From Natrinema mahii (GTDB lineage: Archaea; Halobacteriota; Halobacteria; Halobacteriales; Natrialbaceae): 64,000 bases of DNA. The notes beneath the pieces were generated by a model that made no database searches, was not told the origin of the DNA, and worked only from the letters and a program-made list of their open reading frames with translations. This document shows, piece by piece, positions 59,191-60,672 of this stretch; position 1 is the stretch's first letter, and the number at the start of each line of letters is the position of its first letter. The translations under genes and the position numbers were made by a program. Location: assembly GCA_000690595.2 (NCBI GenBank), contig JHUT02000006.1:62001-126000 (forward strand). Reading direction: 5' to 3'.

Positions 59191-59852
59191 AGATGTACAA
59201 AATACATAATAAAACTGTATTCACACCCACTCGATTAATTCACGACCGACTATCAGTTCCCGACGGACTGACTCCGAACCGACCCGACGATACCCGGTCC
59301 GATCCGACCCGGTTCGCTACAGCGGTAGCGAGGCGAACGCCGACGGCGTTCGCCGCGGAAGAGCAATACCGTTCTATATGGAAAGCAGCGCGAGTTCTCC
59401 GCCCCACCGTGGGCGGGGGTGAAGCGCGTACGCTCGGCTGCGTCCCTGTTTTTAAGTACTGGGACGCCCTACCACGGTTTGGAACCCACGTTATCGGCCT
59501 CGCAAAACCCGCGCACCCACTTCGGGGTAAGACGCGGTGTCGTGCGAAAGACGAAGTCTTTCGTGATCACGAAAATCTCCGATTTTCGAACGACACCGGG
59601 CCTGTGTCGCGCCCACGTGAGGGGGCGGACGCCCACGGACACACCCGCCACGGCAGCAACAGACGACCTCTGTTGCGGTGGCACTCTCGGTGTGTTCGGG
59701 TGTTACCGGTTCCACGCAAGTCTCTCCAGAGACGAGCGCGGGCGGAATTAAATTCGCCACCGGTCGTTTCGCTGGCTCCACGCCAGAGACCACGGCGAAG
59801 CCACGGGCCACCGTGCCCGTGGTACTTCACCTACGCCGGTTTCGTCTCTCCG
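59191..59852. ncRNA. Hairpin-dense gene-free region, possible structured RNA or decayed element
   Basis: No convincing gene fits; the open frames here are Arg/Pro-rich and lack any family signal. The DNA from 59333 on holds at least six perfect stem-loops: 59333-59353 (9 bp), 59399-59416 (6 bp), a three-way junction at 59536-59597, 59656-59676 (8 bp, within a larger stem), 59772-59786 (5 bp) and 59801-59822 (8 bp). TTCTATATGG at 59372-59381 could start a transcript near 59400. The hairpin at 59399 resembles the right end of IS200/IS605 elements, so a decayed transposon is an alternative. Strand and role are undetermined. Confidence 0.4.
59536..59597. repeat. Three-way-junction palindrome
   Basis: The outer stem GGTGTCGT (59536-59543) pairs with ACGACACC (59590-59597). 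Inside are two perfect 8-bp hairpins with 3-base loops: CGAAAGAC/GTCTTTCG (59545-59563) and CGAAAATC/GATTTTCG (59570-59588). Every pair is Watson-Crick. Confidence 0.8.
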
Positions 59853-59878
59853 TCAGTTGGTACTCACGATCTTGATCA
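59853..59878 (-). repeat. Direct repeat, displaced copy of the YchF/OBG GTPase 3' end
   Basis: These 26 bp repeat the end of the GTPase gene at 60647-60672 with one mismatch in 26. Read on the minus strand they encode LIKIVSTN and a stop, against VIKIVSTN in the gene. They border the Fic/Doc cassette on the side away from the gene. Confidence 0.85.
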
Positions 59879-59970
59879 GTACTTTTGCGTACACAACGGA
59901 TAGATACAGCCAGACTCCGTGCGCTGCAATAGCAAGGATTACCTCGGGTGCAGTCTGATTGAACGAACGA

Positions 59971-60459
59971 ATGGCAGACTCGCTCTGGTATCCGTCAGTG
60001 GGCGACGTTCTCGCCATCCACGACGACATCGTCTCGGAGTACTCTGACACGCATGCTGGCGTCCAGAATCGTGGCGATATCGAGTTTGCCCTGAACTACA
60101 TCGAGAGTGGGTGTTTCGGGACGGTGCCCGAAACGATTCACGAGAAATCATTTCACCTCCTCAGACTGTTAGTGGCGAACCATCCGTTCGTCGATGCGAA
60201 CAAACGCACCGCGCTCAACACGACGGTCGTGTTCTACTTCCTCAACGGATATCGGTTCACGTACGACAACGAGATCAGGACGATCCTCAAGCAGTTCGGC
60301 ACTGATCAGACGACCGTCGAAGAAGCAGGAACCATCGAATACCTTCGTTCTCATACTGAAGAAATCGACCTCGTCGGAGAGATCGAACAGTGGCGTGATG
60401 ATCTCATCCAGTACGGACTGGACGAACTGACCGGTGATTCGTCTAACCCGAACGATTAA
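59971..60459 (+). CDS. Fic/Doc-type toxin (death on curing)
   Basis: A 162-residue protein from ATG 59971 (MADSLWYPSVGDVLAIHDDI). The Fic core HPFVDANKRTAL (His71, Asp75, Lys78, Arg79) is the Doc form (HxFxDANKR) of the motif, which transfers phosphate to elongation factor EF-Tu in the P1 Doc toxin. An N-terminal helical part and a C-terminal acidic helix complete the normal Doc length. It leads a two-gene cassette, followed 25 bp later by a 46-codon ORF. The cassette is flanked by the duplicated tail of the YchF GTPase gene. Confidence 0.9.
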   Translation: MADSLWYPSVGDVLAIHDDIVSEYSDTHAGVQNRGDIEFALNYIESGCFGTVPETIHEKSFHLLRLLVANHPFVDANKRTALNTTVVFYFLNGYRFTYDNEIRTILKQFGTDQTTVEEAGTIEYLRSHTEEIDLVGEIEQWRDDLIQYGLDELTGDSSNPND

Positions 60460-60484: not shown

Positions 60485-60625
60485 ATGGCGACCGAGGAAA
60501 GTTCAGAGTCCGATTCTCCCCTCGATGAAGTAATGGACGACATCCGACGAGAACTCGTCCAGCGGGTGGCAGCAGCTGACCGGGACGCGAACCGCGAGAT
60601 CTACGACGCCCTCGAAAACGAGTAA
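60485..60625 (+). CDS. Small acidic protein, possible antitoxin of the Fic/Doc gene
   Basis: A 46-residue protein starting MATEESSESDSPLDEVMDDI. It is acidic with one amphipathic helix (LDEVMDDIRRELVQRVAAADRD). It lies 25 bp after the Doc gene on the same strand and ends 21 bp from the GTPase stop, tail to tail. In most Phd/Doc pairs the antitoxin comes first; here the order would be reversed, as in some haloarchaeal pairs. Its identity as antitoxin rests only on context. No DNA-binding motif is recognised. Confidence 0.65.
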   Translation: MATEESSESDSPLDEVMDDIRRELVQRVAAADRDANREIYDALENE

Positions 60626-60646: not shown

Positions 60647-60672
60647 TCAGTTCGTACTCACGATCTTGATCA
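60647..60672 (-). repeat. Direct repeat, host copy: GTPase 3' end
   Basis: This 26-bp end of the GTPase gene, covering the last eight codons and the stop, is repeated at 59853-59878 with one difference, a silent change in a Thr codon. The two copies are 794 bp apart. Confidence 0.85.

Follow-up and report, generated by a model that had tools for sequence, protein, structure and literature searches.

The hairpin-dense, gene-free block at 59333-59822 of the window (the whole 64-kb stretch of Natrinema mahii DNA analysed here) is, with a probability of about 94%, a palindrome-associated transposable element (PATE) that bears neither a gene nor a transposase, possesses both of its ends, carries an omega-RNA scaffold and a nested palindrome, and would be mobilised by a transposase acting in trans. 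PATEs were described in Haloquadratum walsbyi (Dyall-Smith et al. 2011, PMC3119063), and the block matches this published class, mobilised in trans by the TnpA of IS200/IS605 elements; each of the features by which the class is defined in PMC3119063 was tested and is present. A PATE as such is ordinary for haloarchaea. Its recognition here accounts for a conspicuous gene-free gap, removes a candidate RNA gene and yields a delimited family with clear ends, a target (TCTAW), empty sites and parent elements. Moreover, an element devoid of transposase and nuclease keeps a covarying omega-RNA scaffold, and its would-be guide matches an empty site, thus making the idea of guide-only elements used by TnpB in trans directly testable.

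The block contains perfectly paired stems of 7 bp or more, with loops of 3-8 nt, at 59333-59353, 59545-59563, 59570-59588, 59656-59676 and 59801-59822. These five stems represent the highest count among 260 half-overlapping slices of the window, and 300 dinucleotide shuffles of the block gave a mean of 0.26 stems and never more than two, so that the high hairpin density claimed in a preliminary description of this DNA is real. Its figure of at least six perfect hairpins is reached once shorter ones, such as that at 59399-59416, are counted too. Folding of both strands, which it had proposed, gave RNA structures stronger than expected on each of them (z-scores of -4.6 on the + strand and -5.1 on the - strand). 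The absence of a coding ORF is also borne out, as the ORFs that cross the block are not kept as ORFs in the copies, between which indels, among them a 54-bp insert, are found. Searches of the block returned no Rfam family at gathering score and no tRNA or tmRNA, and a phage origin was rejected upon finding no matches in phage records. The region first delimited is thus hairpin-rich, but the true unit is 59378-59830, which contains four of the five perfect stems, while the first hairpin (59333-59353) belongs to a host flank that is common to the congeners G004 and G020 (loci L008, in G020, and L009), where the element is missing. A "TATA-like" TTCTATATGG had also been pointed out; its reading as a promoter was rejected, since the sequence is the junction between the target TTCTAT and the left end of the element, ATGG.

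The limits of the unit emerge from a search with 59240-59860 against 100 haloarchaeal genomes, in which the matches all begin and end at the same points (59372/59373 and 59830 in the window). The copies are 97% (G006), 94% (G041), 93% (G069) and 92% (G057) identical to that of the window and 73-83% identical elsewhere, and on a Natronococcus occultus plasmid identity reaches 91.7% across the full length of the element. In the alignment of the flanks, the left end always lies after TCTA followed by A or T, with unrelated sequence further out, and the right end always consists of a hairpin followed by TACTTCAC, after which the flank is again unrelated. Since the ends of the copies coincide in this alignment, the unit in the window can be delimited as indicated in Table 1, 3' of TCTAT; TTCTAT is native sequence, being present in the relatives L008 and L009. 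Terminal inverted repeats are absent, as the left end, ATATGGAAAGCAGCGC, does not match the reverse complement of the right end, GTGAAGTACCACGGGC, and palindromes conserved in the copies are located near both termini. The one near 59399, which had been likened to a right-end structure, is actually the left-end (LE) hairpin, also kept in the full-length tnpB elements L014, L031 and L046; the right-end (RE) hairpin is that at 59801-59822, next to the terminus TACTTCAC. No similarity to TnpB or TnpA was detected by tblastn in the window, and an element of 453 bp is too short for a transposase. Lacking a gene for the Y1 transposase TnpA, it is a non-autonomous derivative and not an autonomous member of IS200/IS605.

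Table 1. Features of the element and of its junctions with host DNA (window positions)
Feature	Position	Strand	Basis or remark
Target pentanucleotide TCTAT	59373..59377	+	Host DNA, 5' of the element; intact copies all begin 3' of TCTA(A/T)
Complete PATE, IS200/IS605-type, non-autonomous, 453 bp	59378..59830	+	Sharp ends common to copies in other genomes
LE hairpin CCGCCC-cacngt-GGGCGG	59399..59416	+	Kept in all copies with an LE
Former C-terminal coding tail of tnpB, now non-coding (palindrome insert excluded)	59498..59640	+	Alignment to L109, L044 and L025
Nested 54-bp palindrome, two hairpins, centre GTGATCAC	59540..59593	+	Inserted at GGTG^CGCC
Internal hairpin GCAACAGA/TCTGTTGC	59656..59676	+	Compensatory changes in L037/L012: GCACTAGA/TCTAGTGC
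Omega-RNA (sotRNA)-like scaffold with TTCGGGTGTTA and GGAATTAAA motifs and covarying helices	59696..59830	+	Covariation; covariance model R1
GAAG, candidate RE guide sequence	59797..59800	+	Complementary to CTTC (59825-59828) across the RE hairpin
RE hairpin CCACGGGC/GCCCGTGG	59801..59822	+	Perfect 8-bp stem; kept in all copies with an RE
RE terminus TTCAC	59826..59830	+	Last conserved bases in all copies; flank diverges right after
Host flank, would-be omega-RNA guide	59831..59850	+	Matches the empty allele L009 after TCTAA

By analogy with IS200/IS605, the terminal TTCAC is a candidate cleavage site. The GAAG/CTTC pairs on either side of the RE hairpin are invariant in PATEs (A2 alignment, columns 109-112 with 137-140), whereas the tnpB elements L031 and L014 have AAAAG opposite GTTTAC. 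The complementarity fits a pair formed by a guide and its cleavage site, with TCTAW and TTCAC as candidate positions for cleavage by TnpA.

The preliminary description had considered the remains of an IS200/IS605 (tnpB) element as an option, and as regards ancestry this was correct, given that left end, right end and 3' region are common with tnpB elements. In particular, the loci that bear the LE and not the PATE interior are tnpB-only elements of about 1.4 kb (L014, L046 and, in the genome of the window itself, L031); the LE is about 90% identical to theirs, including that of L031. Their protein is TnpB by Pfam PF07282 (Cas12f1-like TNB domain), and their RE terminus is GTTTAC. A full-length tnpB element with the right end TACTTCAC, as in the PATE, is represented by L109 and L056, which are the same element. 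Its TnpB ORF stops 39 nt short of that end. An alignment of its C-terminal coding region to the PATE, made directly and also via L044 and L025, covers the 3'-most 290 nt of the latter. The relationship to IS605-type ends is therefore found at both termini, with the LE common to L014, L031 and L046 and the RE common to L056 and L109. These alignments indicate that the PATE consists of an LE, the terminal 3' portion of tnpB together with the omega-RNA region overlapping it, and an RE. Another route to short elements is seen in L073/L113 (G150), a core-deleted tnpB element in which the N-terminus of tnpB is joined to the right end.

The 3' part of the element, homologous to the C-terminus of tnpB and the overlapping omega-RNA, is a candidate scaffold for transcription and TnpB binding. 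Covariation in homologues, another check put forward at the outset, is present on the + strand. When 19 right ends, transposase-less or unassigned, were aligned with the tnpB element L056, 18 pairs displayed two-sided changes, with a score of 0.358 compared with 0.181 +/- 0.012 upon shuffling (0/500) and at most 0.107 in a slide control; the latter weighs more because related sequences inflate the shuffle control. PATE copies alone retain 9 two-sided pairs (score 0.186 vs 0.121). A covariance model, R1, built from 16 PATE right ends only, gives 51 bits with the tnpB element L056 and 19-25 bits with tnpB elements that are more distant (L038-L040, L050, L014, L031 and L046), every match falling at the 3' end of the element, and its sole match in the 64-kb window is the present element. 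The only Rfam lead is sot2652 (RF02657; 59771-59828, + strand) at 17.4 bits and an E value of 0.16, below the gathering score of 61; sotRNAs are haloarchaeal omega-RNAs (PMC12558985).

The covarying structure could also serve at the DNA level only, for the recognition of the ends by TnpA, with no omega-RNA being made. As the LE and RE hairpins and the GAAG/CTTC pairing are what IS200/IS605 ends need, this alternative deserves serious consideration, although we regard it as the less probable one. However, the covarying helices are located farther inward than the subterminal hairpin, at 50-135 nt from the right end, and coincide with the tnpB/omega-RNA region of full-length elements. Moreover, G-U pairs are kept on the + strand, several conserved pairs being U-G there and A-C if read on the other strand, and strong transcription has been reported for the 3' part of a 489-bp PATE in Halorubrum lacusprofundi (PMC10544981).

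Complete LE-RE pairs number 20, with sizes from 54 to 559 bp, and are distributed over at least 15 haloarchaeal genomes. Genome G157 harbors three 404-bp copies with few differences (~99% identical) at unrelated sites, all of them lying between TCTAA on the left and flanks that follow TTCAC on the right. When the flanks of two of these copies were joined and searched in the genus, uninterrupted sites were found in G160 and G158, the empty site having GAATCTAA directly followed by CGCAAGTGTACG and the occupied one having the element between AAATCTAA and TGCAAGTGTACG. In the empty sites L188 and L189, TCTAA is kept exactly and is continuous with the flank, and target duplication is absent; the L182 site is uninterrupted as well, but its target is altered (TTCAT instead of TCTAA).

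The locus of the window copy is more complex. In the relative L009, the left flank runs from TTCTAT into TGGTGGC, and the right flank, CTACGCC, is preceded by GTGTCTAA and lies 381 bp further on. In the window, the element stands between TTCTAT and CTACGCC and thus replaces 381 bp between two TCTAW sites of L009 rather than occupying a simple empty site. Such an arrangement is what would remain if two copies had inserted in the same orientation and had then recombined with each other. In the own genome (G000, 99.7% complete), six TnpB-domain loci are present (L175-L180), one of which is the L031 element, and no TnpA (PF01797) was detected, because of which the PATE copy is probably stranded and its present mobility doubtful.

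The missing TnpA, the non-coding state of the tnpB part and the deletion that accompanies the window copy would all suit a dead remnant, i.e., a tnpB transposon that decayed at its present site and was never a mobile unit in this form. Yet both ends are intact, the same deletion derivative recurs at 92-97% identity in unrelated positions of other genera, and one genome has three nearly identical copies, a family pattern that decay in situ cannot give; we consider this explanation very improbable. The idea of tnpB remains has accordingly to be amended, as the element is complete, with two intact ends, and mobile though devoid of a transposase, a view based on the three ~99% copies and the empty sites. 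Finally, strong folding and covariation might point to a long, structured RNA that is encoded by an independent gene and serves a function of the host. This can be dismissed, as the block occurs sporadically, regardless of position, and has transposon ends as well as empty sites; it is missing from congeners in which the flanks are the same (L008, L009), and homology to tnpB elements explains the structure. What stands of the structured non-coding RNA initially proposed is thus a covarying omega-RNA (sotRNA)-like scaffold in the 3' part of a transposon and not a separate RNA gene.

For the transposase-less PATE, a plausible mechanism would start from a Y1 transposase TnpA supplied in trans, which would recognise the LE and RE hairpins in single-stranded DNA and cut on the left after TCTAW and on the right after TTCAC. 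The element would then leave as a single-stranded circle and re-insert 3' of another TCTAW, with no target duplication. The 135-nt scaffold, if transcribed on the + strand, would represent an omega-RNA that takes as its guide the host sequence following TTCAC. In the empty allele L009, this guide, CTACGCCGGTTTCG, comes immediately after TCTAA, and the omega-RNA would direct TnpB made elsewhere to the empty site. The 54-bp palindrome would have been inserted later into the tnpB relic.

Several known systems share part of this organization. Like the PATEs of Haloquadratum, the element has near-terminal palindromes and no terminal inverted repeats, target duplication or transposase gene; it also has IS605-related ends, gives rise to deletion derivatives, of which the most reduced keep only the termini (here L055, 54 bp), and is likewise a target for smaller mobile repeats. 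Unlike them, it belongs to another sequence family, another host genus (Natrinema and relatives) and another target (TCTAW), and its omega-RNA scaffold is documented by covariation and a covariance model. Two further elements can be likened by description, namely the PATE of Halorubrum lacusprofundi and virus HRTV-DL1 and the PATE-like element of Halanaerobium hydrogeniformans, in which the LE hairpin, the whole RE and 58 nt from the 3' end of tnpB are retained (PMC7290912). They have a similar size and a 3' part that is active or retained; expression was shown for the Halorubrum PATE. IS1341-type (tnpB-only) IS200/IS605 elements with their omega-RNA/sotRNA (RF02656, RF02657) have the same LE, RE hairpin and 3' scaffold, but they keep tnpB, which is deleted in the PATE, where the sot2652 score is 17.4 vs 61 bits.

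The least expected part of the finding is the recurrent in-frame palindrome, which merits study of its own. The nested copy is missing from L034, L066, L068 and L007, where GGTG and CGCC meet in a clean junction, and separate copies occur in about 50 genomes, including within tnpA and tnpB. In the tnpB elements L013, L018, L019, L021 and L038 it is found at the homologous C-terminal position, in frame and with a central TGA. In tnpA it follows EILS and precedes LHISPDHVHL, again in frame, in at least 15 genomes (loci L125-L137, L140 and L026); its centre is TGA in most of them and GGA in L127, L135 and L137, and both halves are otherwise mostly open. In a tree of 43 tnpA sequences, the presence of the palindrome needs 13 changes, no fewer than with shuffled labels (mean 12.7), which indicates that it was gained or lost many times at a single tnpA site. 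Downstream of the tnpA stop, dN/dS is 0.07 in TGA-bearing copies. Bypass of the stop, with tnpA being maintained, nonetheless found no support, since the copies are scattered over the tree; this implies that the insertions are recent and that the low dN/dS only reflects functional ancestors. An archaeal intron (bulge-helix-bulge) was rejected by inspection, as the ends of the palindrome pair without bulges. Insertion at the centre of a dyad would account for CGGTG^CGCCG in the PATE and for GAGAT...ATCTC in tnpA, but not for the tnpB site.

The palindrome resembles the small mobile repeats SMR-A of Haloquadratum (PMC3119063) in having inverted ends, in lacking target duplication and in residing in PATEs and IS605-type elements. 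It differs from them in both size and insertion site, as SMR-A are ~110 bp long and lie in near-terminal palindromes, while the nested palindrome is 54 bp long, always a whole number of codons, and has inserted into the tnpB relic and, within tnpA and tnpB, at fixed positions of the coding sequence. A speculative reading, to which we attach little credence, is that the palindrome represents a separate haloarchaeal mobile unit with site specificity. It would insert repeatedly without shifting the frame and mostly with a stop codon in the middle, using in tnpA a single fixed codon boundary immediately ahead of the catalytic HUH motif and in tnpB a single one in the region of the C-terminus and omega-RNA. 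IS200/IS605 elements would thereby be switched off, and on again upon loss or mutation (TGA to GGA) of the palindrome; the present PATE would combine such a switch with a guide-only omega-RNA that TnpB could use in trans. In Haloquadratum, IS605-type elements move although nearly all tnpA genes are disrupted (PMC3119063), and a removable in-frame hairpin, found as a palindrome at the same tnpA codon boundary in unrelated haloarchaea, would bear on this puzzle.

Additional small variations are associated with the palindrome and its surroundings. The 3-nt loops of both of its hairpins occur in either orientation (GAA/TTC, GGA/TCC), as if flipping. In the tnpA of L136, L137, L140 and L147, a second small in-frame insert (SSKAKLCVPRGIEDPA, then a stop or Q) follows CPK, and L145 has yet another insert close by. 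A small palindromic insert is located in the loop of the left-end hairpin in L006 and L062, and L006 has one at the centre of the 54-bp palindrome as well.

Rearrangements are also visible around the locus. The 3' end of the GTPase gene (GTACTCACGATCTTGAT) is duplicated at 59860-59876 and 60654-60670. Between the duplicates lie a Fic/Doc gene (PF02661) at 59959-60459 and, at 60485-60625, a small ORF; the empty site in L052 is likewise adjoined by one copy of this 3' end. At the same locus in G020 (L008/L053), a small membrane-protein ORF is fused directly to the Fic gene and the surroundings of the displaced tail are lost. In G023 (L071/L115, C2 1095482-1095519), a lone PATE right end is joined to the 3' part of another Fic-like gene.
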